A stretch of 64,000 bases of DNA from Saccharothrix sp. ALI-22-I (GTDB lineage Bacteria > Actinomycetota > Actinomycetes > Mycobacteriales > Pseudonocardiaceae), in the NCBI RefSeq assembly GCF_001984175.1, contig NZ_MTQP01000061.1, forward strand, positions 186,001-250,000. The letters run 5' to 3'. Every line of letters begins with the position of its first letter. Position 1 is the stretch's first letter. Both the position numbers and the translations under genes were made by a program. Shown piece by piece: positions 18,194 to 41,851 of the stretch. The notes under the pieces are model-generated. The model did not search any database. It had not been told where the DNA came from and was given only the letters and a program-made list of their open reading frames with translations.

Positions 18194-18239
18194 GGTGAAC
18201 ATTCTGTTTCGGCTCGGCACCGCGAGAGAGGCGTTCGAC

Positions 18240-20119: not shown

Positions 20120-20173
20120 GTCCTCCCACCGGAACCACTCCTTTCGGCGCCACGCCGGGAGAGGAATCTCTTC

Positions 20174-21820
20174 ATGGACCACCGCATCGACCGCCGTTCC
20201 CTGCTGCGGCTCGCGGGTACCGGCGTGCTCGGCCTGGCCGCCGCGCCCCTCCTCACGGCGTGCGGAGGCGGGAGCCCGGCGGGCGACGGCGTCTCCAACG
20301 CCGGCAAGAACCTCACCCCCTGGCCCGCCTACGTGCCGTTCAGCGGGCCGACCCCGGACTCCCCCGGCGACGCGTCCGGCGTGCAGCCGCTCTACCTGAA
20401 GTACCCCGAGAAGCTCGTGCGGTCGGTGAACAACCCCGTGGGGGACGGCTCGGACGTCACGGTGATGGTCGTGTCGTTCGGCGCGCCGCCGAAGCCGGTC
20501 GGCGAGAACCAGTACTGGCAGGCGATCAACAAGGCGCTCAACGTCAACCTGAAGGTCACCGTCGTGCCCGATCCGGAGTACGGGCAGAAGATGGCCACGC
20601 TGATGGCCTCCGGCGACGACCTGCCGGACATGATCATGTTCACCAACCTGGCGCTGCCGCACGGGGCCGAGTTCATCCAGGCCCGCGGCGCCGACCTGTC
20701 GGAGTTCCTCGGCGGGGACGCGGTCAAGGAGTTCCCGAACCTGGCCAACATCCCGACCTACGCCTGGCAGGGCATGGGCCGGATCGGGGGCAAGATCTAC
20801 GGGGTCCCGCTGGAACGGCCGATGCCGGGCAACAGCCTGTTCGTCAACCGCTCGGCCATGGACGCGGCCGGCATCCCCGAGGACTGGACGGTCGAGCAGT
20901 ACCTGGAGGCCATGAAAGGGCTGACCGGCGACCGCAAGTGGGGCGTGGGCTGGTTCAAGACGCTGTTCACCGGGCTGGCCGCCGCCACCTTCCACGCCGG
21001 TTCGTTGGGCGCGCCCAACACGTGGTCGGCGGAGGGCGGCACGTTCACGCACACCATCGCCACGCCGCAGTTCGAGCAGGCCTTGGAGGTCATGCGCAAA
21101 CTGGTCGAGGCCGGGAACCACTACCCCGACAGCCTCACCGTCAGCTCCACCGACATGCAGAGCTACTTCCACAACGGCACGGTCGCGTCGATCAGCGACG
21201 GCTTCGGCTCGGTGAACCTGTCCACCCTGACCAAGATCAACGGACGGTTCGCGCTCGACCTCGGCCGGCCGTACGGGCCGCAGGCCACGCCCTGGCAGAG
21301 CTTCGGCATCTTCGGCTACGTCGCCATGAAGAAGGCCGAGTCCGCCCGGATCAAACTGCTGCTGCGCATCTGCGACTACCTCAGCGCGCCGTTCGGCACC
21401 GAGGAGTACGAGCTGGCCAACTACGGCGTGGAGGGCAAGCACTTCACCAAGGACGCCGACGGCATCAAGACCACCGAGCTGTACAGCCAGGAGAACAACT
21501 CGCTGCTGCCGACCAGGTTCATCGGCGCGGCCCCGTCGGTCCTCTACCTGCCCGGCCACGCCGACGTGGCCAAGTCCGTCCACGAGTGGCAGAAGGCGAC
21601 CCTGCCCAAGAGCGTGCGCAACCCCGCCACCGGGCTTCGCTCGGCCACGGAGGCGAGCAAGGGCGCCCAGCTCAACCAGATCATCGGGGACGGCATCGCG
21701 GCGATCACGTTCGGCCGCAAGCCGCCGTCGGCGTGGAAGGACGTCGTCACCCAGTGGAAGCAGGCCGGCGGTGACAAGGTCGCCACGGAACTCGCCACGG
21801 AGTACGCGGCGAACAAGTGA
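20174..21820 (+). CDS. Extracellular solute-binding lipoprotein of the rhamnogalacturonan importer
   Basis: A 548-residue lipoprotein. The N-terminus DRRSLLRLAGTGVLGLAA combines a twin-Arg and a hydrophobic stretch and ends in the lipobox LLTAC, so Cys about 35 is the lipid anchor. The large size and features such as ASGDDLPDMIMF fit the LplA/YtcQ family, which serves oligosaccharide importers without a dedicated ATPase gene. ATG 20174 is preceded by GGAGAGGA. The gene ends one base before the stop of the convergent DUF2264 gene (21820 versus 21822), leaving no room for a terminator between them. Confidence 0.92.
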   Translation: MDHRIDRRSLLRLAGTGVLGLAAAPLLTACGGGSPAGDGVSNAGKNLTPWPAYVPFSGPTPDSPGDASGVQPLYLKYPEKLVRSVNNPVGDGSDVTVMVVSFGAPPKPVGENQYWQAINKALNVNLKVTVVPDPEYGQKMATLMASGDDLPDMIMFTNLALPHGAEFIQARGADLSEFLGGDAVKEFPNLANIPTYAWQGMGRIGGKIYGVPLERPMPGNSLFVNRSAMDAAGIPEDWTVEQYLEAMKGLTGDRKWGVGWFKTLFTGLAAATFHAGSLGAPNTWSAEGGTFTHTIATPQFEQALEVMRKLVEAGNHYPDSLTVSSTDMQSYFHNGTVASISDGFGSVNLSTLTKINGRFALDLGRPYGPQATPWQSFGIFGYVAMKKAESARIKLLLRICDYLSAPFGTEEYELANYGVEGKHFTKDADGIKTTELYSQENNSLLPTRFIGAAPSVLYLPGHADVAKSVHEWQKATLPKSVRNPATGLRSATEASKGAQLNQIIGDGIAAITFGRKPPSAWKDVVTQWKQAGGDKVATELATEYAANK

Positions 21821-21821
21821 A

Positions 21822-23702: not shown

Positions 23703-23759
23703 GGAGCGGCTCCTGGACCGTGTCGGTTATCGGAACGGCGGGTGTCGGCGGGTAGGCGT

Positions 23760-25622: not shown

Positions 25623-25667
25623 GAAGTCCTCCTTGACTTCTTGAGGCAGGCGGCGGCGTTACAAGGG

Positions 25668-28400: not shown

Positions 28401-28445
28401 GGGGGGCTCCACTCAGGTGGGCGTAACTCCGACGAGATGGCGTTG

Positions 28446-28459
28446 TTTAAACGTTTACT
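28446..28459. promoter_or_regulatory. LacI-family operator upstream of the lyase operon
   Basis: TTTAAACGTTTACT, sharing the AAACGTTTAC core with the other sites, 46 bp before the start of the PL26-type gene. Position fits repression of the leftward lyase promoter. Confidence 0.65.
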
Positions 28460-28513
28460 ACAGTCGAATCGCAGCATGGGACCCAGTGCCTGTCAAGCAT
28501 GGAGGTCTCAGGT

Positions 28514-28527
28514 GGTATACGTTTACA
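28514..28527. promoter_or_regulatory. LacI-family operator in the divergent lyase/regulator region
   Basis: GGTATACGTTTACA. Its right half is a perfect ACGTTTACA half-site. It lies between the two divergent transcription units, so one bound repressor could act on both, or DNA looping with the site 55 bp to the left is possible. Confidence 0.65.
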
Positions 28528-28623
28528 CGTGGACTCGGTGGCACCAGGCCGGCGCGTGCCGACCGCGGCGAACCGGTGCAGCGTGGTGATTTGACACCGT
28601 GTTCGCCTGGCGGAACCATCGCG

Positions 28624-28638
28624 TGTAAGCGGTTTACC
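28624..28638. promoter_or_regulatory. Degenerate LacI-type site just upstream of the regulator gene
   Basis: TGTAAGCGGTTTACC, with GTAA and TTTAC half-sites spaced one base wider than in the other copies. It ends 29 bp before the regulator's ATG, the usual place for autoregulation. Confidence 0.45.
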
Positions 28639-28667
28639 AGCAGGTTTCACGGCCAGGTGGAGGTGGG

Positions 28668-29756
28668 ATGGTCCGGCGTGCGGCGTCCGACAGCGAGGGG
28701 CGGCGTCCGACGACGATCCGTGACGTGGCCGCGCACGCGGGCGTGTCCGTCGCCACCGTCTCCCGCATCCTGTCCGGCACCTACCCCAGCGCACCCGCCA
28801 CCCGCAGCAAGGTCATGCGAGCGGTCCGCGAGTTGGACTACGTGGCCAACGCCAACGCGCGCGGGCTGGCCGGCGCGAGCAGCCGCAGCGTGGCCATCAT
28901 CGTCAACTCCGTCATCTCACCCCACTACGCCCACGTCGCCCAGGGCGTGCAGACCCAGGCCGCGATCGAGGGCAAGCTCTGCATCGTCGGCACCACCGGC
29001 GGCGACCCCGAGCGCGAGTTCGCCACGGTCCAGCTCATGCGCGAGGAGCACGCCGAGTGCGTGATCCTCGTCGGCAACGTCGTGGCGGACGACGCCTACC
29101 GCCAACGCATGGCCGACTACGCCCGCGCCCTGGCGCTGGCGGGCTCGCAGCTCGTCCTGTGCGGGCGCCCGGCGCTGGGCCCCGACGTGCCCGCCCTCGT
29201 CGTCGAGTACGACAACATCGGCGGCGCCTACGCCATCACCAGCCACCTGCTGTCGACGGGCCACCGGCGCATCCTGTTCCTCGGCCGCCGCGACAACTAC
29301 ACCACTCCGGAAAGCCGCATCGCGGGCTACCGCAAGGCCCTGGCCGACTACCGCGTGCCGCACGACCCCGGTCTGGAGGTCGAGGGCAGCATGGAGCGGC
29401 GCGAGGGCTACCGGATGATCCGGGAACGACTCGCCGCCGGACCACCCGACTTCACCGCCGTCTTCGCCGGCAACGACCTCCTCGCGGCAGGCGCCCGCCA
29501 GGCGTTGCGGGAGCACGGGCTGCGCGTCCCCGACGACATCTCGCTGGTCGGCTTCGACGACCTGCCCCCGGCCGCCGACATCGACCTCACCACCGTCCAC
29601 GTGCCGCACGAGGAGCTGGGCCGCACCGCGGTGCGCATGGCCCTCGAACGCGTGCGGGACAAGTCGGACATGGCCGAGCACGTCATGCTCGGCACCCACA
29701 TCGTCATGCGCGACTCGGTGCGCCCCGTCATCCGCGCCGGCGCACCGACCCAGTAG
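28668..29756 (+). CDS. LacI family repressor of the rhamnogalacturonan locus
   Basis: A 362-residue LacI/GalR protein. The HTH begins TTIRDVAAHAGVSVATVSRI (about residues 15-34), followed by the hinge region RELDYVANANARGLAG. The rest is a periplasmic-binding-protein-like sensor with DISLVGFDDLPPAADIDLTT and the C-terminal VPHEELGRTAVRM that LacI proteins share. ATG 28668 has GGAGGTGGG directly upstream. It is divergent from the lyase operon, with three operator-like palindromes in the gap. The same palindrome occurs 10 kb away at the transporter and dehydrogenase promoters, so it is the likely pathway repressor, induced by a rhamnogalacturonan breakdown product. Confidence 0.92.
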   Translation: MVRRAASDSEGRRPTTIRDVAAHAGVSVATVSRILSGTYPSAPATRSKVMRAVRELDYVANANARGLAGASSRSVAIIVNSVISPHYAHVAQGVQTQAAIEGKLCIVGTTGGDPEREFATVQLMREEHAECVILVGNVVADDAYRQRMADYARALALAGSQLVLCGRPALGPDVPALVVEYDNIGGAYAITSHLLSTGHRRILFLGRRDNYTTPESRIAGYRKALADYRVPHDPGLEVEGSMERREGYRMIRERLAAGPPDFTAVFAGNDLLAAGARQALREHGLRVPDDISLVGFDDLPPAADIDLTTVHVPHEELGRTAVRMALERVRDKSDMAEHVMLGTHIVMRDSVRPVIRAGAPTQ

Positions 29757-29761: not shown

Positions 29762-30481
29762 TCAGGCCAGGCCCAGGCCGCCGCTGAGGGTGATCACCTC
29801 GCCGGTCAGCGAGTCGCCCGCGCGCAGGACGAGGAACGCCACCGTCTCGGCCACCTCATCCACGCCGACCAACCGGCCCAGCGGCACCCTGGAGCGGTAG
29901 GCCGCCAGCGCGTCCTCCGGTGAGGACGACACCGTCGCCAGCACCTCGTCACGCAGCCCCGCGTCCACGAGGGCCGGCGCGACGGCGTTGCACCGCACCG
30001 GCACGCCGGTCCGCGCGCAGTGCAGGGCGACGGATTTCGTCAGGTGCAGCACGGCCGCCTTGGCCGCGCCGTAGGCCACCATGCCGGGGGTGGCGAGCTG
30101 TCCCGCCGTGGAGGCGAGGTTGACGATCGACACCGGGTGGCCGAACCCGCGGCCGACGACCTCGCGGCAGCCCAGCCACGTGCCGACGACATGGGTTTCC
30201 ATGATGGACAGGAACTGTTCAGGGCGGGCGGTCAGCACGCCCTGCTCGGTGCCGCCGAGGTCGCCCGCGGCGTTCACCAGCGCGTCGAGCCGGCCGTGCC
30301 GCTCCAGCACCTCGTCGACCGCGCGGGTCCAGTCCTCGGCCTTCGTCACGTCCAGCGCGATGCCGTCCGGCGCGGGCTTGCGCGAGGCGGCCACGGCGAT
30401 CGCACCCGCCGCCGCCAGCGTGTCCACGACCGCGGACCCGATGCCGCCACCCCCACCGGTGACCAGGACGACGGGGCTCAT
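29762..30481 (-). CDS. SDR family oxidoreductase, last gene of the SAM-riboswitch operon
   Basis: A 239-residue classical SDR: TGGGGGIG nucleotide loop (about 8-15), NAAGD, catalytic Ser in NLASTAGQ, and YGAAK with Tyr and Lys. The C-terminal GEVITLSGGLGLA is the usual substrate-loop end. ATG 30481 overlaps the aminotransferase stop (ATGA), so it is translationally coupled to it. The gene ends 5 bp from the stop of the convergent LacI gene. The protein probably reduces or oxidises an intermediate of the pathway encoded upstream; the substrate is unknown. Confidence 0.88.
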   Translation of the reverse strand: MSPVVLVTGGGGGIGSAVVDTLAAAGAIAVAASRKPAPDGIALDVTKAEDWTRAVDEVLERHGRLDALVNAAGDLGGTEQGVLTARPEQFLSIMETHVVGTWLGCREVVGRGFGHPVSIVNLASTAGQLATPGMVAYGAAKAAVLHLTKSVALHCARTGVPVRCNAVAPALVDAGLRDEVLATVSSSPEDALAAYRSRVPLGRLVGVDEVAETVAFLVLRAGDSLTGEVITLSGGLGLA

Positions 30482-31587
30482 GACAGCCGCTCCGCGAGCC
30501 GCCGCGCCGCTGTCTCGAGGGTGCTCTGCCGCTTGCACACGGCGAACCGCACTAACGTGTCCACAGTGGACACCGGGGCCGAGTAGAACACCGACAGGGG
30601 CAACGCGGCCACGCCCTCGTCGACCACCATCCGGTCGCACCACGCGTCCGCCGCCATACCGACGTCGGCCACCAGGTAGAACGGGGAGGCCGCCACACTG
30701 GTGGACAAACCGACCTGAGTGAGCCGTTCGGCGAACCAGGTCGCGCGCTCCCGCAGGCCGTCCGCGACCTCGCCGACGACCTGGAAATCGTCGGCCAGCA
30801 CGTCGGCGACGGCGTGCTGGAGCGGCACGGCCGGGCAGAACGTGACGTACTGGTGCACCGCCCTGATCCGCTTGGTCAGCTCGGGCCCGGCGACGGCCCA
30901 CCCGACCCGCCACCCGGTCACGGCGAACGACTTGGACACCGACGACACCTTGACCCGCAGCTCCGGCTCCGGGATGGCGTCCAGGACACCCCGGTGTTCT
31001 CCGGGGACCAGGTGCTCGTAGGTCTCGTCGGACACCACGACGATCCCCCGCTGCCGCGCGAGTTCCGCGAGCGCGGCCCACTCGTCGGACGTCAGCGCGC
31101 GCCCCAGCGGGTTCCACGGGCTGTTGACCACGACCACCTTGGTCCGCTCGGTGCACACCGCCGCGAGCAGGTCGGCGAACGACCCGTCGACGTCGGTGAG
31201 CCGGATCGGCACGACGGTCCCGCCGGCCGACCGGATCGCGGGCGCGTACTGCTCGTAGGCCGGTTCCACGACGATCGCCTCGTCACCGGGCTGGAGCAGT
31301 GCGAACAGCGCGCAGTGCAACGCTTCCGTGGCGCCCGCCGTGATCGTGACCTCGGTGTCCGGGTCGGGTGAGTTCGCGGTGCGGAGCGCGACCGCCTGCC
31401 GCAACCGTGGCAGACCGGCGCTGGGCGCGTACTGGTGCGCGCCCTCGTTCTGCCCCGCGGCGACGAGGGCGCGCAGCAGCGCGGCGGGTGGACCGTGGTC
31501 GAAGACCCCCTGCGCCAGGTTCACCGCCCCGTGCCGGGCGGCGAGCGCCGGGATGCGGACGAACATCGACTCCGCGACCAAGACCAC
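30478..31587 (-). CDS. PLP-dependent aminotransferase, class I/II
   Basis: A 369-residue fold-type I aminotransferase: NLAQGVFDHG at the N-terminus, the PLP-phosphate loop AGATEAL, NSPWNPLGRALTS (the N-P-x-N/G region), SDETYEHL with the PLP pyridine Asp and Tyr, the Schiff-base lysine in SVSKSFAVTGWRVGW, and the terminal Arg in VRFAVCK. The pattern is that of kynurenine/methionine/aromatic aminotransferases (KAT/YbdL-like). GTG 31587 has AAGGGAG 7 nt upstream; 13 bp separate it from the permease. It would interconvert a 2-keto acid and an amino acid beside the dehydrogenases of this operon. Confidence 0.9.
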   Translation of the reverse strand: MVLVAESMFVRIPALAARHGAVNLAQGVFDHGPPAALLRALVAAGQNEGAHQYAPSAGLPRLRQAVALRTANSPDPDTEVTITAGATEALHCALFALLQPGDEAIVVEPAYEQYAPAIRSAGGTVVPIRLTDVDGSFADLLAAVCTERTKVVVVNSPWNPLGRALTSDEWAALAELARQRGIVVVSDETYEHLVPGEHRGVLDAIPEPELRVKVSSVSKSFAVTGWRVGWAVAGPELTKRIRAVHQYVTFCPAVPLQHAVADVLADDFQVVGEVADGLRERATWFAERLTQVGLSTSVAASPFYLVADVGMAADAWCDRMVVDEGVAALPLSVFYSAPVSTVDTLVRFAVCKRQSTLETAARRLAERLS

Positions 31588-31600
31588 GGGTCACTCCCTT

Positions 31601-32872
31601 TCAGGCGGATGTGCGGCGGCTCTGGACGACCTGCACGACCAGGGCGACGGCGAGCACCACGACGGCGTAGATCGAGCGCCACCCCGACTGCACCAGGCTC
31701 ACGCCGAGCACGCCGAGCAGCAGCAGGTTGAGCACCGAACGCACGGTGAATCCACGCACGCGCGCGTAGGAGATGATGCTGAGCAGGTACAGGACGATGA
31801 AGATCGCGCTGGCGGTCGCCACCGCGTCCACGATCACGTCGGGCCACGTCACCAGCACCACACCGACGAGCGCGAACAGGCCGGACAGCAGGAAGATCGC
31901 CCGCCGCGGCACGCCGTTGGCGGTGGTGACGGACAGGCCGCGCGGGAGGATGCCGCTGGTCGCGGCGCCCTGGACCAGCCGGGACACGCCCCACACCCAC
32001 GCCACCGCGTTGAGCACCATCGCGCCGAACGCGATCACGGTCACCACGAGCACGACGAGTTGGCGGGGCTGGATGGTCTGCGCCAACTGGAGCAGCCCGG
32101 TGACCTCGTCCACTTCAGACCGGGGGATGCGCACCGCGATGGCGACGGTGAGCAGGATGGTGAACACGCCGTAGACGCCCAGCGCGGTCGCGCTCACCGG
32201 CAGGAAGTCGCGGCGCGGATCGCGGAACTCCTTGCTGAGGAAGGTGAGGTTCTCGAACCCGGCGAACGCCCAGAACGCCAGCACCACGCCCGGCAGCAGC
32301 ACGCCGAGCTCGGTCAGGTCCGGCGTGACGGCGGGCAACCCGGTCCGCATGCCCGGGATCGCCGCGACGATCAGCACCGCCGCCATGAGCACCAACGCCC
32401 AGGTGCCCGCGTTCTGCACCCTGGTGCTGGTCTTGACCCCGGCGAGGTTCGACGCCACGGCGGCCACCAGGACGGCCACGGCGGCGAGCACCGCGACCAG
32501 GCCACCCGCGCCCACCGCCTGCGCCACGTAACGCCCGGCGACCATCGCGCCGGACGGCAGGCCGACGATGACCAGCGACAAGAACATCAGCGGGACGCAG
32601 CGCCCGAACGCCCGGCCCAGTCCCGTGCGGATGAACGCCTCGATACCGTCGCCGTCCGGGTTCGCGCGCACCATGTCCTCGAACATCAGGAGCATCGGTA
32701 AGCACACGACGGTGGACAGCAGCCACACCAGCAAGCTGTTGCTGCCGGTCTCGGCGTAGACGGCCGAGGGCAGGAACAGGATGCCGGAGCCGGCCACCGA
32801 CCCGATCGCCAGCGGAATCGCCTGTCGCCTGCTCAGCCCGGTCCGGGCCGCGTCGACCTGCCTGTCGGTCAT
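31601..32872 (-). CDS. APC-superfamily amino acid permease
   Basis: A 423-residue membrane transporter with about 11-12 helices. The first helix contains AIGSVAGSGILFLPSAV, the APC substrate/Na+-site G-S-G-I unwound segment, and VLAFWAFAGFENLTFLSKE is the conserved helix-6 region with F/G-x-E. The C-terminus is short and basic. ATG 32872 follows the TAA of the upstream oxidase directly (TAAATG), with GGGAG inside that gene's last codons. It is an operon member, so it may import a precursor or export the pathway product. Closest in feel to YjeH/YhjE-like amino acid exporters, but direction cannot be read from sequence. Confidence 0.87.
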   Translation of the reverse strand: MTDRQVDAARTGLSRRQAIPLAIGSVAGSGILFLPSAVYAETGSNSLLVWLLSTVVCLPMLLMFEDMVRANPDGDGIEAFIRTGLGRAFGRCVPLMFLSLVIVGLPSGAMVAGRYVAQAVGAGGLVAVLAAVAVLVAAVASNLAGVKTSTRVQNAGTWALVLMAAVLIVAAIPGMRTGLPAVTPDLTELGVLLPGVVLAFWAFAGFENLTFLSKEFRDPRRDFLPVSATALGVYGVFTILLTVAIAVRIPRSEVDEVTGLLQLAQTIQPRQLVVLVVTVIAFGAMVLNAVAWVWGVSRLVQGAATSGILPRGLSVTTANGVPRRAIFLLSGLFALVGVVLVTWPDVIVDAVATASAIFIVLYLLSIISYARVRGFTVRSVLNLLLLGVLGVSLVQSGWRSIYAVVVLAVALVVQVVQSRRTSA

Positions 32873-34282
32873 TTAGTAGGGCTCCCCACGCCAATGGATC
32901 ATGCGATCCCGGTTGAGGATGCCGTGCGGGTCGAGCAGCGCCTTGAGTCGCGCCATCAGGTCGATCTCGCCCTCGGATCTGGTGTAGCCGAGGTAGGACC
33001 GCTTCTCGAATCCGACGCCGTGCTCAGCCGAGATTGATCCGCCACTGTTAGTGACCAGACGATACACAATGTGTTCGACCTCGGGTTTGCGGTCCCTCGT
33101 GGTCTCCCCCGTCACGACGGCGATGTGCACGTTGTCGTCACCCAGGTGGCCGAACACCAGCAACTTCACCGCCGGCCACAACTCGGTCAGCTCCGCCCGC
33201 ATCCGGTGCAGGCACTCGGCGAGCTGCCCGGCGGGCACGCTCACGTCGAACCCGAACAGCGGCTGCATCCGCAGGATCTCGCCGGGGATGCGCTCCCGCG
33301 CGGCCCAGAAGACCGCCAACTCCTTGGCGTTGGACGCCACGGCCGCGGCCAGCAGGTCGTCCTCCACCTCGGCCACGCACTCGGCCAGGCGGACCGCGTC
33401 GCCCTCCGGGTCGGCGCCCCGGCACTCCACCAGCACGTAGATCGGGTGGCCCACGGGCAGCGGCAGCCGGATACCGGTCGGCTCCAGCACCCGGTACGCG
33501 TCGTCCCAGATCACCTCGAACGCGGTGACGGCGCCGGGCAGCTTGCGCTGCAACGTGCCCAGCAGCCGCAGCGCCGAGTCCACGTCCGCCACCGCGCAGA
33601 ACGCGCCGTTGCGCGTGATCGCGCCCGGCTGGAGGCCGAACGTGGCGCGGGTGACCACGCCGAGAATGCCCTCGCTGCCGATGAAGAGGTGCTTGAGGTC
33701 GATGCCCGCGTTGTCCTTCACCAAGGACGTGGACAGGGTCAGCACCTGCCCGTCGGCCAACGCCACCTCCAGCGACCGCACGTGCTGCCGGGTCATGCCG
33801 AAGCCGACGACGTTGACGCCGCCCGCGTTGGTGGCCACGCAGCCTCCGATCGTGGCACTGCCCTTGGACGCCAGGTCGATCGGCAGCAGCAGCCCGTGTC
33901 TCGCGGCGGCGTCCTGCACGTCGGCGAGCGTCGCACCCGCGCCCGCGGTGACCGTGCGGCCGGCGAGGTCGACCGGCTCGATCTCGCCGAGCAGTTCGGT
34001 GGACAGCACGATCTCGCCCGCGTCCGGCACGGCGCCGGAGACCAGTCCCGTCATGCCGCCCTGCACCACCACCGGCTGCCGGTCCTCGTGGCAGTACTTG
34101 AGGATCTGGGCCACCTCGGCGGCGGTGCGCGGCCGCACCACGATCTCCGCCTGGCCGACGCGGTCACTGCCCCACAGGTCCTGCACGTGCTTGGCGGGCA
34201 CCGCGTCCCCGGTCAGCACGTTCGCCGCACCGACGATCGCCGCCAGCTCGTCGTGGTGGCGCAGGATCACTTCACTGGTCAC
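32873..34282 (-). CDS. FAD-linked oxidase (D-lactate/D-2-hydroxyglutarate dehydrogenase family)
   Basis: A 469-residue flavoenzyme of the FAD_binding_4/FAD-oxidase_C type. The PCMH-type FAD domain spans about 45-220 (VVVQGGMTGLVSGAVPD and GSATIGGCVATNAGGVNVVG, the adenine- and pyrophosphate-binding loops). The C-terminal catalytic domain has FGHLGDDNVHIAV and SAEHGVGFEKRSYLG, which hold the His/Glu/Arg residues of the D-2-hydroxyacid site. GTG 34282 is preferred (AAGGA 8 nt upstream, overlapping the previous stop). It would oxidise a D-2-hydroxy acid to a 2-keto acid. The operon also has a 2-hydroxyacid dehydrogenase that could run the opposite half. Confidence 0.9.
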   Translation of the reverse strand: MTSEVILRHHDELAAIVGAANVLTGDAVPAKHVQDLWGSDRVGQAEIVVRPRTAAEVAQILKYCHEDRQPVVVQGGMTGLVSGAVPDAGEIVLSTELLGEIEPVDLAGRTVTAGAGATLADVQDAAARHGLLLPIDLASKGSATIGGCVATNAGGVNVVGFGMTRQHVRSLEVALADGQVLTLSTSLVKDNAGIDLKHLFIGSEGILGVVTRATFGLQPGAITRNGAFCAVADVDSALRLLGTLQRKLPGAVTAFEVIWDDAYRVLEPTGIRLPLPVGHPIYVLVECRGADPEGDAVRLAECVAEVEDDLLAAAVASNAKELAVFWAARERIPGEILRMQPLFGFDVSVPAGQLAECLHRMRAELTELWPAVKLLVFGHLGDDNVHIAVVTGETTRDRKPEVEHIVYRLVTNSGGSISAEHGVGFEKRSYLGYTRSEGEIDLMARLKALLDPHGILNRDRMIHWRGEPY

Positions 34283-34292
34283 GGATTCGTCC

Positions 34293-35900
34293 TTAGTGCT
34301 CGATGTTCGCGTGGCCCGCCCGCAGGCTGGCGTGCACGTGCAGCAGGTATCCGGTGCGGCCCGACGCCAGCGCGCGGCGGACGGCGTCGCGCACCTCGTG
34401 CGGGTCGCGGACCGTTTCACCGGGTATTCCGAACGCGGCGGCCCACGCGACCAGGTCGGGCGTGACGAGGTTCGTGCCGCAGTAGCGGCCCGGGAACTGG
34501 CGGCGGGCGTGCTGGTCGATGGTGCCGTAGCCGCCGTTGTCGGCGACCACGACGATCGGGCACCGGCCGTGCGCCATGGCCGTCGCCAGCTCGTCGCCGG
34601 TCATCAGCAGGCCGCCGTCGCCGACAACGGACACCACCGTGCGATCCCGGTACCGGTCGGCCGCCGCGACGGCCGCCGGCACGCCGAACCCCATCGCGCC
34701 GTTGCCCAGCGCGAGCATCAGCCGGTCCGGGCCCACGTGCACGTAGCGGTGCACCCAGCTGGAGAAGTTGCCCGCGTCGAAGGTGATCACCGAGCCGTCG
34801 GGCAGCTCGGCGTCCAACGCGGCGGCGACGTGGGTCAGGTCGAGCCCGTCGTCGAAGGGCCGGGGGTTCGGCGTGGCGAGCCGGTCGGCCAGCTCCCGCC
34901 ACCCCCGCACCCAGTCGAGCCGTTCCGGTGTCGGTGCCGCCCAGTGCGCGGTGACCAGCGCGTCCAGCACCGCCCTCGGGTGCGCCGACGGCTTCTCCGG
35001 GTACACGACGTGGACCCGCGGCCCGCTCCAGCCCGCCAGGTGCACCTCGTCGGGCGCCTCGCCGAGCAGCACGACCAGATCGGCCTCGGCCAGCCGTGCC
35101 CGCACTTCGCGGGGCGTGCCCAGGTGCAGGTGACCCGCGTAGTGCGAGTGCCGGTTGTCCACCAGGTCCTGCAACTTGTTGCCCACCAGCACCGGCAGCC
35201 CGGCCGCCGTCGCCAGAGACACGAGCGCCTCACCGGCCGAACGGTCGGTGTGCCGCGTGCGCAACAACCTGCCAGCCACCAGGACGGGCCGGTGCGCCGA
35301 TGCCAACGCGGCCCGCAGGTCGGCGACATCCGCCTCCAGCATGTCCCCCTCCTCCCGGCCCGCCTGCACCGAGTTCGCCTCCGTGCTCAGCACCTCGCCG
35401 GGGACGGAGGCGGTCCACAGGTCCTCGGGTACCAGGAGCACCACCGGCTGCGGTACTGGTCCGTGCAGCACGGCGGACGCGCGGGTCAGCTGCGCTGCCA
35501 GGTCGGCCGCAGACAGGGTGATCACCTCGGCCAACGCGCCGAACATGCCCGCCAGGTCGGCGCCCTGGAACGCGGTGGCCCGATCGGCGGTGGACGGGAT
35601 GTCGCCCACCAGCACCAACAGCGGGGTCGGGTCGGCAGCTGCCGCGTCGACCGCGATGGCGGCGTTGCAGCTGCCGGGAGATCGGTTCACCGCGACCACG
35701 CCGGGCTTGCCGGTCAGCCGCGCCGACGCGATCGCCATGAAGCCGGCGCCACTCTCGTGCCGCGTGGTGACCGTGCGGATGCCGAAGTCCTCCGCCGTGG
35801 CGAGCAGCGGCAGGAACGCCTCACCGGGCACGGTGCACAGCTCGTCGGAACCGAGGTCCACCGCCATCCACCGGCACAGCAGCTCGACGACCGTCGTCAT
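34293..35900 (-). CDS. Thiamine diphosphate-dependent enzyme (acetolactate synthase/2-keto acid decarboxylase family)
   Basis: A 535-residue single-chain ThDP enzyme. The N-terminal Pyr domain has TTRHESGAGFMAIASARLTG with the glutamate that activates the cofactor. The middle domain is about 190-320. The C-terminal PP domain has VVGDGGLLMTGDELATAMAH and DNGGYG, the GDG...N Mg2+/diphosphate motif, with G-Y-G in place of the more common N-x-x-Y/W-G spacing. Family members carboligate or decarboxylate 2-keto acids. ATG 35900 shares one base with the upstream stop (TGATG). Between an aminotransferase and a D-hydroxyacid oxidase it probably acts on a 2-keto acid made in the operon. A decarboxylase of the benzoylformate/sulfopyruvate kind is one possibility, not shown. 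Confidence 0.88.
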   Translation of the reverse strand: MTTVVELLCRWMAVDLGSDELCTVPGEAFLPLLATAEDFGIRTVTTRHESGAGFMAIASARLTGKPGVVAVNRSPGSCNAAIAVDAAAADPTPLLVLVGDIPSTADRATAFQGADLAGMFGALAEVITLSAADLAAQLTRASAVLHGPVPQPVVLLVPEDLWTASVPGEVLSTEANSVQAGREEGDMLEADVADLRAALASAHRPVLVAGRLLRTRHTDRSAGEALVSLATAAGLPVLVGNKLQDLVDNRHSHYAGHLHLGTPREVRARLAEADLVVLLGEAPDEVHLAGWSGPRVHVVYPEKPSAHPRAVLDALVTAHWAAPTPERLDWVRGWRELADRLATPNPRPFDDGLDLTHVAAALDAELPDGSVITFDAGNFSSWVHRYVHVGPDRLMLALGNGAMGFGVPAAVAAADRYRDRTVVSVVGDGGLLMTGDELATAMAHGRCPIVVVADNGGYGTIDQHARRQFPGRYCGTNLVTPDLVAWAAAFGIPGETVRDPHEVRDAVRRALASGRTGYLLHVHASLRAGHANIEH

Positions 35901-37117
35901 CAGCGCTCGACCGACGGGTGCCGGAACTCGCCGGTCACCGACTCCTCCGGCCACACCACGACGGCCTTGTCCGCCGAGTCGCCGACCTCTTGGTAGTGCA
36001 TGAGCACGATCTCCGGCGGCTGGTGGTGGTCGGTGTCGCCGAACCGCACCGTCCCGCGCCATGTGCGGAAGCTCCCCGACTCCAACGCGTTGCGCAGCGA
36101 CGCCCGGTCGTGCGCACCTGCCAGCGCCGCCGCCTGGGCGAGGATCACCACGTCGGTGAACGAGTTGAGCGTGTTGTCCGGCGGGTAGCTGCCGAACTCG
36201 GCGTAGTACGTGTCCACGAACCAGCGGCCGCTCGGCGTGAGACCGGTCCACTCCGGGCTGAACCGGGTCGCCGGCCACACCACGCCCGCACCGGCGGGCC
36301 CGGCGAACTTCCAGTAGTCCTGCGCGCGCATCGGGAACGGGAAGCAGGCCATCATCGGCACCTTCGGCAGCAGACCGGTCTCCGCCGCCGCCTCGACGAT
36401 CATGTAGTTGGTGCGCACCACACCCGCGTTCACCAGCAGCTGCGGGCCGAACTCGGTGGCCCGGCGCAGCGGCTCCTTCAGGTCCTGCACGCCATCCTGG
36501 GCGAAGTCCTCCCGGAACAGCTCCAGGTCCGGGATGGCCTCGCGCAGCGCGTCGCACACGGTGTCGGCCAGCATCTGCCCGAACACCGTGTCGGCCGCGA
36601 CCACCGCGACCCGCTTCCAGCCCTGCTTCGCGGCGAACGACGCCATCAGCGGCGCCCGGTCGGCGATGGAGAAGTAGGTGCGGAACAGGTTGCGGCGTCC
36701 GTACGTGATCGTGTTGTGCCCGTTCTCGATGAACGTCGGCACGCCCCACCGCTCGGCCAGGTCCGCGACCACCGGGCTGGTACGCAGGTGCCACTGCCCG
36801 ACGACCGCGCTCACCTCGTCCAGCATGACCAGCTTCGCCATGCCGCCCGCCGCCGAACGCGACATGTGCTCCTGGTCCGCGGTCCGCTGGTCGTTCTCCA
36901 GGAACAGCCGCACCGACCGGCCGGAGAAGTCACCGGGGTGCTCGGCCACGTAGCGGGCGCCCAGCACCGCGCCGCGCACCACCAGCTCACCGGCGACGGG
37001 GTCACCGGGCAGGCTCAGCGGCGTGAGGACACCGACCGGCACGGCCGCGCCGGTGACCGTGGCGTTGTAGGCCTTGACGAGCTCGCGGGCCCTGGTCTCG
37101 TTTTCGCTCAGCATCAC
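35900..37117 (-). CDS. LivK/AmiC-like substrate-binding protein lacking a signal peptide
   Basis: A 405-residue type-1 periplasmic-binding-fold protein of the branched-chain amino acid/amide/urea group: PVGVLTPLSLPGDPVAGELV at about residue 26, AVVGQWHLRTSPVVADLAE, GWKRVAVVAADTVFGQMLAD. The N-terminus MMLSENETRARELVKAYNAT is charged and amphipathic, with no hydrophobic core, Tat motif or lipobox. No ABC permease or ATPase gene lies nearby. It therefore looks cytoplasmic, as in AmiC-type sensors, and may sense a pathway metabolite. GTG 37117 or ATG 37114 follows GGGGGAAAC. A rare GTG further upstream giving an export signal was not seen. Confidence 0.85.
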   Translation of the reverse strand: MMLSENETRARELVKAYNATVTGAAVPVGVLTPLSLPGDPVAGELVVRGAVLGARYVAEHPGDFSGRSVRLFLENDQRTADQEHMSRSAAGGMAKLVMLDEVSAVVGQWHLRTSPVVADLAERWGVPTFIENGHNTITYGRRNLFRTYFSIADRAPLMASFAAKQGWKRVAVVAADTVFGQMLADTVCDALREAIPDLELFREDFAQDGVQDLKEPLRRATEFGPQLLVNAGVVRTNYMIVEAAAETGLLPKVPMMACFPFPMRAQDYWKFAGPAGAGVVWPATRFSPEWTGLTPSGRWFVDTYYAEFGSYPPDNTLNSFTDVVILAQAAALAGAHDRASLRNALESGSFRTWRGTVRFGDTDHHQPPEIVLMHYQEVGDSADKAVVVWPEESVTGEFRHPSVER

Positions 37118-37130
37118 GTTTCCCCCGGGT

Positions 37131-38243
37131 TCAGACGTCGAATCGCTTGCGGTACTGGGCGGTATCGGTGCGCAGCGCCTCGGCGTCGAGCCCGAACTCT
37201 GCCGGCGAGTAGCGGTGCGCGCCGTGACTGCGCTGCCCGTTGGTGACTAAGTACTCGCGGACCTCCGCCAGGAACCGGTCGGTGACGGGCAGGTCGAGGA
37301 AGCCCAGAACGCGGCGCAACGTCCCCTCCGTATCGCCGACGAGTTCGGCGTAACGCAGGTCCAGCACCGGCCGGTGGTCCACCAACTCGTCGCGCGCCTG
37401 TGCCAGCCGGTCGGTCAACGGCACGATCCGCTCCCGCCAGAACGCGCCGATCTCCGGCAGGTCCAGGTCGTCGCTGCGGGCGCCGCGCACCGCCCGGCAC
37501 AGGCTCGCCGTCGACGAGATCGCCGCGGCCGGGTCGCGGTGCAGGTGCACGAACCGCGCGTTCGGGTAGGCACGCACCAGCTCCGGCAGGAACCAGGTGT
37601 GGAACGGGCACTTGAGCACCGGTGTCAACGGCACCCCGTCGTCGGCCGACCGCTTGCTCATCAGCACTTCCAGCTGGGCCCGGTGCCACCGGTACGGCAT
37701 CGTCATGTCCTGCTGGTGCAGCCACTCCCCGTAGGAAGGCACCCGGTAACGCATCTCCAGGACCATGCTGTGGAAGGTGTTGATGAGCAGCCGGTGGCAC
37801 TCGTCGGGCCGATCGGCCCGCAGCAGGTGGATGCCGGGCAGTTCGGGGGCCTTGGCGTTGTACTCGTCCACGTACCGTTGCGCCCGGTCGCGGACCTCGG
37901 CGTAGTTCACCGGGTCGCCCGCCGCCGCGACCGGGTCCGCCAACTCCCACAGCTTCGGGCCGTGCAGCCGCTCGTGCAGCGCCAGGAGGTTGTGCAGCAA
38001 CGTCGTCCCGGTGCGCAACAGCCCGATCACGACCACGGGCGCGTCGACCGGGGCGGGCGGCTGGGCGGCGCGCAGCGCGATCACGTCCGAGACGACCTTC
38101 CGGCTCGCCTCGACCGAGCCCAGCACGACGGGCTCGTCCTCCGCGCGCAGCCGTGCCTCGGCGGCCAGTGCCTTGCGGAAACGGTCCTCGCCGACCTCGA
38201 ACGCGGGCTCCGGCCGCACGTCCGGCGGTGACGTTGTGGTCAC
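37131..38243 (-). CDS. PAPS-dependent sulfotransferase family protein
   Basis: A 370-residue Sulfotransfer_3-type enzyme. VIGLLRTGTTLLHNLLALH is the 5'-phosphosulfate loop (P-loop-like, about residues 72-90), and ARFVHLHRDPAAAISSTASL is the 3'-phosphate-binding segment with the conserved Arg and Ser. KCPFHTWFLPEL and the C-terminal HRYSPAEFGLD are shared with actinobacterial Stf-like proteins. GTG 38243 has GGAGGA upstream and overlaps the previous stop (GTGA). It would transfer sulfate from PAPS to a hydroxyl or amine of the operon's product. It is the only tailoring-type transferase here, hinting that the product is sulfated. Confidence 0.9.
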   Translation of the reverse strand: MTTTSPPDVRPEPAFEVGEDRFRKALAAEARLRAEDEPVVLGSVEASRKVVSDVIALRAAQPPAPVDAPVVVIGLLRTGTTLLHNLLALHERLHGPKLWELADPVAAAGDPVNYAEVRDRAQRYVDEYNAKAPELPGIHLLRADRPDECHRLLINTFHSMVLEMRYRVPSYGEWLHQQDMTMPYRWHRAQLEVLMSKRSADDGVPLTPVLKCPFHTWFLPELVRAYPNARFVHLHRDPAAAISSTASLCRAVRGARSDDLDLPEIGAFWRERIVPLTDRLAQARDELVDHRPVLDLRYAELVGDTEGTLRRVLGFLDLPVTDRFLAEVREYLVTNGQRSHGAHRYSPAEFGLDAEALRTDTAQYRKRFDV

Positions 38244-39202
38244 GGCTCCTCCAAATCGGCGACGACGGCGTCGCGCGGTGTCCGGCCCGCACGCAGGTCG
38301 GACAGGTTGTCCAGGAACGCCCGGCCGACCTCGGCAGGTTCACCGGGGAAGGCGAAGGCGCAATGCGGTGACACCACCAGGTTCGGCACCGCCCACACCG
38401 GGTCGTCCGCCGGCAGCGGCTCCACGCGGTGCACGTCGAGGAAAGCGCCGCGCAGCGCACCGGCCACCAGCGCCTCGCGCAGCGCGGTGTCGTCCACAGT
38501 GGACGCCCGGCCGACGTTGACCAGGACGGCGTGCGGTTTCAGCAGGCCCAGCAGGTCCTTGTCGACCAGGTTCGCGGTGTCCTCGGTGCCCGGCAGGCAG
38601 CACACGACGTGGTCGGCGGTCGCGGCGGCGGCGAGCAGCCCATCGACGCCGATCGTCCGCTCGGCGCCCGGCACCGGCGTCGCGCCGGTCCGGGTCACCG
38701 CGACACACCGTGCACCGAGGGCGTCGAGCCGCAGCACGACCGCCCGACCGATCCGCCCGGCGCCCAGCACCAGCACCGTGGCGCCGTGCAGCATCAGCGC
38801 CGTGGACGAGTACCACGGCCGGCGCTGCGGACGCTCGGCCAGCGCCGGGAAGTCCTTGAGCAGCATGAGCAACGCGGACACCGCGTACTCGGCCACGGAC
38901 TCCACCGGCACTCGCGCCGAGTTGGTCACCAGCACGTCCGGCGCGAGTCCCGCCGCACGCAGGTGGTCGGTGCCGGTGCCGGTGAGGTGCAGCCACCGCA
39001 AGGCGGGCAACTGCGCCAGCACACCGGGCGTGAACTGGTAGCCAACCAGCACGTCCACGCCGGCCCGCACATCCTCGGGCAGGTCGGCGATCGACTCCGC
39101 GCGCAGCACCGGGACTTCGTCCTCGATCCGGGGAATCAGCTTCGGCGCCATCTTGGAGTGCGCGACCAGCACGGTCGGGCGCTCCCAGGCGGACGCCGTC
39201 AC
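38240..39202 (-). CDS. NAD(P)-dependent D-2-hydroxyacid dehydrogenase
   Basis: A 320-residue member of the phosphoglycerate-dehydrogenase-like family, GhrA/GRHPR-type. TVLVLGAGRIGRAVVLRLDA is the Rossmann turn; the catalytic triad residues are Arg in VNVGRASTVDDTALREAL, Glu in DVHRVEPLPADDP and His in VVSPHCAF. LHLTGTGTDHL contacts substrate carboxylate. GTG 39202 overlaps the amino acid dehydrogenase stop by 4 nt. Reduction of a 2-keto acid to a D-2-hydroxy acid is the family reaction. In this operon it faces a FAD-linked D-2-hydroxyacid oxidase, so the two may set a keto/hydroxy balance or serve successive steps. Confidence 0.9.
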   Translation of the reverse strand: MTASAWERPTVLVAHSKMAPKLIPRIEDEVPVLRAESIADLPEDVRAGVDVLVGYQFTPGVLAQLPALRWLHLTGTGTDHLRAAGLAPDVLVTNSARVPVESVAEYAVSALLMLLKDFPALAERPQRRPWYSSTALMLHGATVLVLGAGRIGRAVVLRLDALGARCVAVTRTGATPVPGAERTIGVDGLLAAAATADHVVCCLPGTEDTANLVDKDLLGLLKPHAVLVNVGRASTVDDTALREALVAGALRGAFLDVHRVEPLPADDPVWAVPNLVVSPHCAFAFPGEPAEVGRAFLDNLSDLRAGRTPRDAVVADLEEP

Positions 39203-40341
39203 AGCGCGATGTTCCGGCCCGCGAGCAGCTCGGCGACCGGGTCGGGACTGCCTGCCGCGCTGAGCTCCTGGATCAGCTCGCAGTTCTTGGTGATCTTCGC
39301 CGAGATCCATTCGCGCAGCCACGCCGACACCTGCGGCACGGTCAGCCCGGAGGGCACGACCCCCGCGATGATCGAGCCGGTGACCGCCGCCGCGCCGACG
39401 TTCACCACCACGTCGGGCAGCACGGTGTGGCCGGCCAGGCGCAGCATGCCCCGCGCCGCCCGGCTGCAGCTCATGTTGCCGCCCTCGACCACGATGCCCG
39501 CGCGGACCGACGACGCGGCCGACTCGTCGACCGCGTCCGCGCCCGCCGCGAGCACGAGCACGTCCGCGTCGACCTTGAGCCACGCGCGGTCGCCGTCGTG
39601 CACGCGGACCGAGGCCGGCAGCTGCCGTCGGTCGATCGTGCCGTCGCTGCTGGTGCACTCGATCAGCTTGTCCACCGGCAGGCCCGCCGGGTCCTCGATC
39701 GTGCCGTGCACGTCGGCGACGGCGACGAGCCGGTGGCCCGCCGCCACCATGTGCTGGGCGGCGCCTCGGCCGACCGTGCCGAACCCTTGCAGCACCACGC
39801 GTTGCGGCGCCTTCGCACCCGCCGCGCTCAGGGTGCTCAACGCGGCGGTGGCCACGCCGAACCCGGTGATGTCCGACATCGTGCGCCAGAACTCGGCCCA
39901 GTCGACGCTGAGCCTGGTGGCGCCGGGCCGGGAGGCGATGTCGTAGTCCGCGGCGGCGAAGAACACGTCCCGGTCCGGGTGGGTCGTGCCCTGGTCGCAG
40001 CCGAGGTACACGCCGCCGTGCAGCAACGGGCGGGTCACCTGGCCGAAGGTGCGCATCAGCGCCGCGCGGTCGCGGACCGGGCCGTTCGGGCGGATGCCCG
40101 CCTTCGCACCGCCGATGGGCAGGTCGACAAGGGCGAGCTTGTGCGTCATGGCCCTGGCCAACCCCGCTAGCTCGGCCTCGTCCACGGTCGCGGTCATCCG
40201 CGTGCCGCCCATGGCCAGACCGTCGACCATGCTGTCGACCACGACCCACCCCTCCGCGTCGCAGCCCGGCAACGACAGGGTCGTCGAGAACAGGGGCGAG
40301 GACGCGTGCTGGGCATCGCTGTGCAGGAGCATCTGGCTCAT
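39199..40341 (-). CDS. Glu/Leu/Phe/Val dehydrogenase family protein
   Basis: A 380-residue amino acid dehydrogenase. MGGTRM, the substrate-carboxylate Lys in AMTHKLAL and the catalytic Lys in LPIGGAKAGIRPN match the leucine/valine/glutamate dehydrogenase dimerisation-catalytic domain. QRVVLQGFGTVGRGAAQHM begins the NAD domain. GVYLGCDQGTTHPD replaces the usual D-x-G/N-T region and may change substrate choice. ATG 40341 overlaps the thrC stop (ATGA) with AAGGA upstream. It catalyses reductive amination of a 2-keto acid or the reverse. Close coupling to thrC suggests a short-chain substrate such as 2-oxobutyrate or a threonine-derived acid, which is inference. Confidence 0.88.
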   Translation of the reverse strand: MSQMLLHSDAQHASSPLFSTTLSLPGCDAEGWVVVDSMVDGLAMGGTRMTATVDEAELAGLARAMTHKLALVDLPIGGAKAGIRPNGPVRDRAALMRTFGQVTRPLLHGGVYLGCDQGTTHPDRDVFFAAADYDIASRPGATRLSVDWAEFWRTMSDITGFGVATAALSTLSAAGAKAPQRVVLQGFGTVGRGAAQHMVAAGHRLVAVADVHGTIEDPAGLPVDKLIECTSSDGTIDRRQLPASVRVHDGDRAWLKVDADVLVLAAGADAVDESAASSVRAGIVVEGGNMSCSRAARGMLRLAGHTVLPDVVVNVGAAAVTGSIIAGVVPSGLTVPQVSAWLREWISAKITKNCELIQELSAAGSPDPVAELLAGRNIAL

Positions 40342-41615
40342 GGCGCTGTCCTTAGGTCCGAAAGGGCGGTGAGCACGGCGTCTGCCGAGGGTGGGACGTT
40401 GGCCTTCGGGCCGACCCGGTTGCCGAGGGCGTCGAGGGTTTTGAGGCCGTCGCCGGTGATGAGCAGGACGGTTTCGGCGTCGGGGTCGAGTTGGCCGGTG
40501 TCGATGAGTTTCTTGGCGGTGGCGACGGTGACGCCGCCGGCGGTTTCGGCGAAGATGCCCTCGGTCCGGGCGAGCAGGCGGATGCCCTCGACGACCTCGT
40601 CGTCGGTGACGTCCTCGATGGCGCCGTGGGTGCGGCGGACGGCGTCGAGGACGTAGGGGCCGTCGGCGGGGGCGCCGATGGCCAGGGAGCGGGCGATGGT
40701 GTCGGGGCGGACCGGGGTGACCACGTCGAGGCCGGCCTTGTAGGCGGCGGAGACGGGGGAGCAGCCGGTGGCCTGGGCGCCGAAGACGCGGTAGGGGGTC
40801 TGTTCGACCAGGCCGAGGGTGCCGAGTTCGCGGAAGGCCTTGTCGACCTTGGTCAGCTGGGAGCCCGACGCGATGGGCACGACGATCTGGTCGGGCAGGC
40901 GCCAGCCGAGTTGTTCGGCGACCTCGTAGCCCAGGGTCTTGGAGCCCTCGGCGTAGTAGGGGCGGACGTTGACGTTGACGAACGCCCAGTCCTCGTGTTC
41001 GGCGGCCAGTTCCTGGGCCAGCCGGTTCACGTCGTCGTAGTTGCCGTCGACGGTGATCAGGTTGCCGCCGTAGACGGCGGTCATGAGGATCTTGGCCTGT
41101 TCCAGGGAGGAGGGCACCAGCACCACCGACTGCCAGCCCGCGCGGGCCGCCGCGGCGGCCACGGCGTTGGCCAGGTTGCCGGTGGACGGACACGCCAGCA
41201 CCTTGAAGCCCAGTTCGCGGGCGGCGGCCAGGGCGACGGCGACCACGCGGTCCTTGAACGAGTGGGTGGGGTTGCCGGTGTCGTCCTTCACCCACACCTT
41301 GCGCAGGCCCAGGGCCTTGGCCAGGTTGTCGGCCTGGACCAGGCGGGTCATGCCGGGGTCGGTGTTGGGGTGCGACCGGACGTCCGAGGGCACGGGCAGC
41401 AGGCCGCGGTAGCGCCAGATCGACCCGGGGCCGGCCTCGATGTCCTCGCGGCGGATCTTGCCGAAGTCGTAGGCCACTTCCAGCGGCCCGAAACACTCCA
41501 TACAGGCGTATTCGGGGGCGAGCGGCGTCTGGTGCCCGCATTCACGACAGGACAGCGCCCGGGCAGGACCGAGGTCGAAGGAGGTGGTGGCCGGGGGCGC
41601 ACTGACAGCAGTCAT
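40338..41615 (-). CDS. thrC: Threonine synthase (PLP), head of a ten-gene operon under a SAM-I riboswitch
   Basis: A 425-residue fold-type II PLP enzyme. The N-terminus holds a zinc-ribbon-like pair, SCRECGHQTPL and ACMECFGPLEVAYDF (about residues 20-48), typical of the actinobacterial single-gene threonine synthase. The PLP lysine is in GNPTHSFKDRV; the phosphate loop is CPSTGNLANAVAA. The reaction is O-phosphohomoserine to threonine plus phosphate. ATG 41615 is chosen because GAGGAG lies 11 nt upstream; an ATG at 41633 lies inside the riboswitch closing helix and is less likely. The gene is translationally coupled to the amino acid dehydrogenase. Because it heads an accessory operon, a modified substrate, as in the related cysteate synthase, should be considered. 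Confidence 0.9.
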   Translation of the reverse strand: MTAVSAPPATTSFDLGPARALSCRECGHQTPLAPEYACMECFGPLEVAYDFGKIRREDIEAGPGSIWRYRGLLPVPSDVRSHPNTDPGMTRLVQADNLAKALGLRKVWVKDDTGNPTHSFKDRVVAVALAAARELGFKVLACPSTGNLANAVAAAAARAGWQSVVLVPSSLEQAKILMTAVYGGNLITVDGNYDDVNRLAQELAAEHEDWAFVNVNVRPYYAEGSKTLGYEVAEQLGWRLPDQIVVPIASGSQLTKVDKAFRELGTLGLVEQTPYRVFGAQATGCSPVSAAYKAGLDVVTPVRPDTIARSLAIGAPADGPYVLDAVRRTHGAIEDVTDDEVVEGIRLLARTEGIFAETAGGVTVATAKKLIDTGQLDPDAETVLLITGDGLKTLDALGNRVGPKANVPPSADAVLTALSDLRTAP

Positions 41616-41628
41616 CGCGAGGTAACTC

Positions 41629-41751
41629 CTCATCTTTCCCACGCGTCGCGGGTCGGAATTGGCACCGTGATCGCCGGCGCACGGTGGACGCGCGCTGAAC
41701 GACGGGTTGCCGGGGCTTCTTCGGGCCGATCCCTCTGCCCCTCTGGATGAG
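41629..41751 (-). ncRNA. SAM-I (S-box) riboswitch controlling thrC and its operon
   Basis: Reading leftward, the leader begins CTCATC (41751-41746) and ends GATGAG (41634-41629), a perfect six-base-pair P1. Between them are the S-box landmarks: cagAGGGATCGGCCC, then GAAGAAGCCCCGGCAACC, and on the 3' side CGGTGCCAATTCCGACCC, matching the conserved core of SAM-I aptamers. The thrC ribosome binding site GAGGAG (41631-41626) overlaps the 3' strand of P1. SAM binding should therefore hide it and switch translation off. No T-run terminator follows, which agrees with translational control as is usual in high-GC Gram-positives. Confidence 0.93.
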
Positions 41752-41851
41752 CGGTATTCAGTTGTTGTCGCCTCAAAGTACGGCACGATCCCGACCCTCG
41801 GCCACAGACGTCCACCATACGGACGTCTGTCGCCCGTGGGAGGATCGCGCC

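Follow-up and report, generated by a model that had tools for sequence, protein, structure and literature searches.

A window of 64,000 nucleotides from Saccharothrix sp. ALI-22-I (assembly GCF_001984175.1, contig NZ_MTQP01000061.1, positions 186,001-250,000) contains ten minus-strand genes, which follow one another from position 41615 down to 29762 behind an S-adenosylmethionine (SAM) riboswitch; the complete run lies at 29762-41753 (Table 1). A first-pass annotation had described it as a tightly packed, riboswitch-led operon of ten genes outside the standard cluster classes. The packing is borne out in the assembly, where successive genes are spaced by -4, -4, -4, +13, -1, +10, 0, +13 and -4 bp, and Pfam agrees with the family named for all ten genes. 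The riboswitch is also genuine: the covariance model RF00162 yielded 80.2 bits compared to a gathering score of 44.4. The Pfam domains of the ten genes include no core synthase for polyketides, nonribosomal peptides, terpenes or ribosomally synthesized and post-translationally modified peptides, and the binding protein is rightly called signal-less, as no signal-peptide-like start was seen in the aligned copies (judged by eye). What was not supported is the leadership of the riboswitch over ten genes, because riboswitch and thrC form another locus in the relatives examined. From the sequence comparisons described below, we consider it somewhat more probable than the contrary that the window combines an ordinary riboswitch-thrC locus with an unrelated, rare sulfation cassette dependent on 3'-phosphoadenosine-5'-phosphosulfate (PAPS), the two being joined in a repeated gene. 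In the following, G000 denotes the genome of the strain itself and other G numbers denote further genomes; C stands for contigs and L for loci.

Table 1. Features of the gene run in the window as assembled, with the gene shorthand used in the text. PLP, pyridoxal phosphate; ThDP, thiamine diphosphate; FAD, flavin adenine dinucleotide; SDR, short-chain dehydrogenase/reductase.
Feature	Position	Strand	Remarks
SAM-I (S-box) riboswitch	41627..41753	-	RF00162; upstream of chromosomal thrC/metM-like gene; probably without physical link to the cassette
thrC-like PLP enzyme	40338..41615	-	second member of the ThrC family, likely of MetM type; repeat collapsed at 40492-41402, the middle of the gene
GDH, ELFV-type amino acid dehydrogenase	39199..40341	-	Pfam and alignment
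2HDH, D-2-hydroxyacid dehydrogenase	38240..39202	-	VNVGR, EPLP and SPH motifs conserved
ST, sulfotransferase, PAPS-type (Sulfotransfer_3)	37131..38243	-	GLLRTGTT loop
SBP, Peripla_BP_6 binding protein, signal-less	35900..37117	-	among the best conserved members (85-91%)
ThDP, ThDP-dependent enzyme, acetolactate synthase-like group	34293..35900	-	Pfam and NCBIfam models
FAD, FAD D-2-hydroxyacid dehydrogenase (D2HGDH/GlcD family)	32873..34282	-	Gly in place of the D2HGDH Lys
APC, APC permease	31601..32872	-	closest model in NCBIfam, with a score below cut-off, is the L-methionine/branched-chain amino acid transporter of YjeH type
AT, PLP aminotransferase, kynurenine/methionine aminotransferase-like	30478..31587	-	Pfam and NCBIfam models
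SDR, SDR oxidoreductase, accessory	29762..30481	-	Pfam; elsewhere only in G348

Of the ten genes, eight form a unit that is rare, syntenic and free of standard core genes. The order and strand GDH-2HDH-ST-SBP-ThDP-FAD-APC-AT are retained in relatives at protein identities of 69-94%; differences between the copies are concentrated at third codon positions, and the aligned stretches are free of stops. APC was not found in the copy of Solihabitans fulvus (L012), and the contig of G347 ends within this gene. SDR is present among the copies only here and in G348, and thrC is outside the conserved set. The first-pass annotation had proposed conserved synteny as a check for its operon: the eight-gene core is indeed linked in relatives, whereas thrC and the riboswitch show no conserved linkage to it. 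A search with the ThDP protein yielded L010 (a Saccharothrix metagenome-assembled genome), L011 (Saccharothrix obliqua) and L012. L010 and L011 apparently equal contigs C85 of G347 and C7 of G342 and were counted once; a fourth locus, L013 from Lachnospiraceae (27% identity), was excluded. The binding protein was detected in 5 of 25 genomes of the genus (E <= 1e-80), in 5 of 390 genomes of the family, all of them from this genus (E <= 1e-50), and in a phylum draw of 396 genomes in the own genome alone (E <= 1e-50). The same was true for the ThDP protein in an order draw of 298 genomes (E <= 1e-100). A plasmid search by means of the binding protein gave three weak partial matches. The literature, searched at listing level, contained no description of the cassette, which is apparently undescribed.

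At the GDH end of the copies in G342, G347, G348, G352 and Solihabitans lies a divergent cysC gene. Next to it, each of the four genus members has cysD, truncated by a contig end in two of them; cysN comes after cysD in G348 and G352, the two with enough DNA. In these four other holders from the genus, the cassette thus starts beside cysC-cysD, without thrC or riboswitch. The cysC of Solihabitans is more distant (57%), and a neighbouring cysD was not found in L012. The adjacent cysC-cysD(-cysN) genes, together with conserved residues of the PAPS loop, strengthen the earlier idea that the product is sulfated.

The upstream part of the run has a different distribution. A homologue of the window thrC is present in 60 of 60 family genomes drawn and in 25 of 25 genus genomes. 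The family search gave loci from 30 places, namely 29 relatives and the own genome, and the riboswitch scan covered 20 of the 29. A holA gene (NCBIfam TIGR01128, 140.4 bits at a cut-off of 80; in Pfam only a match to a polymerase delta domain below the threshold) adjoins thrC divergently in all 30 loci read, and the SAM riboswitch was found in each of the 20 scanned. Cassette genes were found within the 1.5 kb flanks of thrC in none of the 29 relatives' loci. No Rfam match at the gathering threshold was obtained in L010-L012, L045, L053 and L067-L069, and in G348 and G352 thrC is located megabases away from the cassette. The arrangement holA <- -> SAM riboswitch-thrC would accordingly be an ordinary locus of the family, in which translation of thrC would be blocked when SAM is plentiful. 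Such control at the level of translation is suggested by the 3' end of the aptamer, which reaches into the GAGGAG ribosome-binding site ahead of the ATG at 41615.

The window thrC is not the only gene of its family in the strain. Contig C65 of the own genome carries a canonical hom-thrC operon that includes a thrB-like GHMP kinase gene; the window gene is therefore a second member of the family. Its product passes the threonine synthase model TIGR00260 (271.2, curated cut-off 167.1). A cysteate synthase, and with it a sulfonate route, was considered and rejected (TIGR03844, 76.7 at a cut-off of 324.9). According to PMC12172450, which cites Hasebe et al., MetM of Streptomyces, a homolog of ThrC whose gene follows a SAM riboswitch, acts as homocysteine synthase. 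The window gene shares one defining feature with metM of S. albulus, namely that it encodes a ThrC homolog behind a SAM riboswitch; here, the gene is additional to a canonical hom-thrC-thrB operon. By analogy, it probably encodes a MetM-type homocysteine synthase, a function that would fit the riboswitch better than threonine synthesis. The same paper tempers this assignment, since it reports a Microcystis ThrC, 51.6% identical to MetM, whose action was not fully that of MetM. In any case, the comparison with MetM accounts for thrC alone and leaves the cassette unexplained.

The link between the two parts was traced to a second, split thrC. Contig C67 starts within this gene: bases 1-198 encode residues 6-71 with 83% identity, and no base differs from the window thrC over bases 2-108. 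Contig C62 (411126 long) ends within thrC: bases 410979-411125 encode residues 376-424 with 88% identity, and its final 122 bases agree exactly with the window thrC, followed by divergence into a 3' end that resembles thrC of the genus relatives. Beyond this 3' end, C62 leads to ComEC, ComEA-like and DegV genes; its comEC side matches the region downstream of thrC in 23 of the 29 relatives' loci, and for the other six the match is confined to thrC. The 911 bp in the middle of thrC (40492-41402) are single in the assembly and lie within the window. Judging from the identical stretches at the ends of C67 and C62, the ends of thrC are therefore present twice and its middle once, and the window contig has most likely been assembled wrongly across a collapsed repeat. 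The thrC-like 3' end that overlaps GDH by 4 bp in the window contig is distinct from the 3' end on C62. Doubt is thus confined to the 5' half of the window thrC; the join of its 3' end to GDH is real in the contig.

C67 also contains the sole apsK-family match of the own genome (cysC, C67:481-981), followed by cysD and cysN, and the 5' part of the split gene (thrC') is divergent from cysC-cysD-cysN. In BLAST comparisons, the intergenic region between cysC and thrC' on C67 matches the regions between cysC and GDH in G348 and Solihabitans; the best match has 48.1 bits, compared to a maximum of 30.2 in 500 shuffles. No match was found between the riboswitch leader and the cysC-GDH intergenics. 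A multiple alignment was made of six intergenics, which were the cysC-GDH regions of L010, L012 and L067-L069 plus L045:199-481. The other three cysC-GDH intergenics contain blocks at the same place, namely GTCAA, GTCCAC, TTCAC or TCAC, and CCGATGCT. An inverted repeat, TCCAC-CCT-GTGGA, occurs in three of the six (own, L067, L012) and is a possible operator. The true orders are probably cysNDC <- -> thrC'-GDH... and holA-riboswitch-thrC-comEC, with the window contig misjoined, and the riboswitch-led ten-gene operon is probably an assembly chimera.

On its other side, the cassette is adjacent to a rhamnogalacturonan (pectin) utilisation locus at 18192-29756, which comprises two ABC permease genes, a solute-binding protein, DUF2264, an RGL11-type lyase, a PcRGLX-type protein and a regulator of the LacI type; 5 bp separate the end of the locus from the SDR stop. 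The positions of this LacI flank and of thrC were compared in three genomes that consist of one contig and lack the cassette. They are 4.2 and 8.95 Mb in G337 and 1.85 and 3.83 Mb in G351, which places the two halves of the window contig 4.7 and 2.0 Mb apart, respectively. In G340, they are 1.03 and 8.05 Mb of 8.38 Mb, which corresponds to a distance of about 1.4 Mb if the chromosome is circular. In G336, thrC sits on a different contig from katG, a gene of the C67 side, and from the LacI flank. The homology of the left flank stops at the LacI stop in five relatives; the stretch beyond LacI in G336 maps in the own genome to C58 131-140 kb and to scattered places. The cassette flanks in G348, G352, G342 and L012 gave no blastn match to the left flank of the window, to C67 3.2-28.8 kb or to C62. 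As evidence for a misjoin, flank synteny is therefore at most mildly supportive.

Several points weigh against the misjoin. Base 1 of C67 differs from the window base; the two thrC copies therefore need not be identical throughout. The shared upstream sequence was reported by BLAST only for G348 and Solihabitans, not for the other three copies. Moreover, katG and the LacI flank of G336 share contig C11 at a distance of about 68 kb, in an order and orientation unlike a simple insertion. With the exception of a 956-bp piece in G337 that matches C67, the stretches beyond LacI in the five relatives show no match to the pieces of C67 (its first 68 kb) or the end of C62 with which they were compared; because of these mismatches, flank synteny left the join of C67 to the cassette unproven. 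Finally, the join was judged from assembled contigs, and a real recombination between the thrC copies may have taken place. The window contig would then be correct, and crossing-over in thrC would have put the cassette under the SAM riboswitch, resulting in a SAM-repressed sulfation operon. The contig as assembled and the 4-bp overlap of thrC and GDH agree with this scenario, and the agreement of the thrC ends suggests that the middles are nearly identical as well, which would permit recombination. However, a single strain would have to break both the thrC-comEC order and the cysC-cassette pairing of its relatives, the reciprocal product cysC-thrC'-comEC would part the cassette from its usual upstream sequence, and the two contig ends within thrC show that the repeat was not resolved by the assembler. 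We therefore regard a correct contig as quite improbable.

For the enzymes of the cassette, six copies were aligned with each other and with reference GDHs and human D-2-hydroxyglutarate dehydrogenase. Among the copies compared, the catalytic motifs are retained. In GDH, the motif GLAMGGTR replaces the KGG-containing motif of the aligned GDHs in six of six copies, so that a Met occupies the position of the Lys which we take to bind the side-chain carboxylate in glutamate dehydrogenases; specificity for glutamate is thus disfavoured. Likewise, the FAD enzyme contains FGFDVSVP instead of YKYDLSLP in all six copies and retains the GHLGD..H and SAEHG motifs. Here, a Gly replaces a Lys that is presumably located near the distal carboxylate in the human enzyme, which disfavours 2-hydroxyglutarate. 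Both replacements make a neutral side chain likely, and the substrate of the amino acid dehydrogenase is likely a neutral amino acid. The aminotransferase has YbdL as its nearest relative in the PDB and reaches 303 bits with a methionine aminotransferase model (cut-off 420). These values and the sub-cut-off match of the permease to YjeH hint at methionine or branched-chain substrates. The sulfotransferase (PF13469, 149.9 bits) carries the sequence G(L/M)LRTGTT, which we assume to be the phosphosulfate-binding loop, in six of six copies and fits the PAPS-dependent class by domain and loop. The two solved relatives that were found, PDB 2zq5 and 2z6v, which we take to be mycobacterial Stf proteins, are distant (95 and 88 bits).

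Two known arrangements resemble the cassette in part. Scytonemin synthesis employs ScyA and ScyB, a ThDP enzyme plus an ELFV amino acid dehydrogenase, and the cassette likewise has an ELFV dehydrogenase together with a ThDP enzyme of the acetolactate synthase-like group; in contrast to scytonemin, it adds a sulfotransferase, hydroxyacid enzymes and cysCDN. A tryptophan dehydrogenase of the ScyB type was rejected for GDH (31.4 bits at a cut-off of 600). Natural-product sulfotransferases with adjoining PAPS genes are a known kind of arrangement, to which the cassette of the relatives, with its PAPS-type sulfotransferase next to cysC-cysD(-cysN), is similar. It differs in that no core synthase lies inside, in its enzymes for 2-oxo, 2-hydroxy and 2-amino acids, and in the accompanying signal-less binding protein.

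Taken together, the cassette is probably a PAPS-dependent sulfation unit for a 2-oxo or 2-hydroxy acid derived from a neutral amino acid, a function that is predicted from sequence. Its upstream end would lie on C67, in the order cysN-cysD-cysC <- -> thrC'-GDH-2HDH-ST-SBP-ThDP-FAD-APC-AT-SDR. The dehydrogenase and the aminotransferase would turn a neutral L-amino acid into the 2-oxo acid, and the D-2-hydroxyacid dehydrogenases linked to nicotinamide adenine dinucleotide (NAD) and FAD would set the balance between 2-oxo and D-2-hydroxy acid. The ThDP enzyme would decarboxylate or ligate the 2-oxo acid, and the sulfotransferase would sulfate the product with PAPS supplied by CysDNC. The APC permease may transport product or substrate, and the cytosolic binding protein may sense or hold a ligand of the pathway. 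This assignment has its own weak points: cysDNC may also serve general sulfate assimilation, the substrate ideas are derived from family membership and two residue changes of assumed meaning, and structure models from six-row alignments are weak (mean pLDDT of 42 for the binding protein and 67.5 for the ThDP enzyme).

The surroundings of the copies were inspected for nonribosomal peptide synthetase (NRPS) genes. In G348, a three-module NRPS is located 4.3 kb from SDR, and on the far side of cysN an AMP-binding protein and an NRPS follow 4.1 and 11.9 kb beyond. The Solihabitans copy has an NRPS 3.2 kb from AT. In G352, AMP-binding and condensation-carrier-thioesterase (C-PCP-TE) proteins start 9-11 kb beyond cysN, with a further NRPS up to 29 kb. 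In G342, where DNA was available on one side, the five large frames that were scanned within 27 kb contained no NRPS gene. In the window, the nearest assembly-line gene found encodes a ketosynthase-acyltransferase (KS-AT) protein 14 kb from the cassette; the C67 side was hardly scanned. This polyketide-type protein is encoded at 11870-15697, and its best NCBIfam model, PfaA, remains below the cut-off. Also in G348, adjoining ornithine cyclodeaminase-like and PALP genes (L108:13429-15439), presumably resembling a diaminopropionate pair, lie near NRPS and carbamoyl-phosphate synthase genes.

With NRPS genes near several copies, the cassette is possibly a sub-cluster of nonribosomal peptide clusters. 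It could supply a sulfated non-protein residue to the neighbouring synthetases, a role that is compatible with the favoured sulfation unit and to which we assign a real chance, albeit one below even. The genes near the copies of G348, Solihabitans and G352 argue for it; the findings in G342 and in the window argue against it, and such NRPS neighbours may also occur by chance in these genomes. Clearly less probable is that the operon serves the catabolism or detoxification of a 2-hydroxy or amino acid taken up from outside, with sulfation as a step of disposal or export. The FAD- and NAD-linked D-2-hydroxyacid dehydrogenases, the aminotransferase, the amino acid dehydrogenase and the permease would suit uptake and breakdown, but a sulfotransferase is present in every copy and cysC stands beside the cassette in relatives, and the narrow distribution as well as the NRPS genes near three copies resemble specialised metabolism. 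Just as unlikely is the most far-reaching form of the sulfation proposal, in which a neutral 2-oxo acid, perhaps derived from methionine or homocysteine, would undergo an acyloin-type ThDP step and PAPS sulfation to a new type of specialised metabolite unit, with the cytosolic binding protein as carrier or sensor of a ligand, a duplicated MetM-like enzyme recruited in this strain as the first gene in order to feed the pathway, and the whole module being swapped among NRPS clusters.

Apart from these loci, a single open frame at 1036-2409 of the window encodes a protein kinase that carries a cellulose-binding domain (CBM_2) at its C terminus.

The assembly result serves as a practical warning: where a riboswitch gene has a near-identical duplicate, a false regulatory story can arise. 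The cassette itself, found in the collections searched only in one genus plus Solihabitans, is a defined gene set for testing. It is rare, contains no core gene recognized by cluster finders and combines amino-acid chemistry with genes for activated sulfate; it therefore points to an apparently undescribed sulfated compound.

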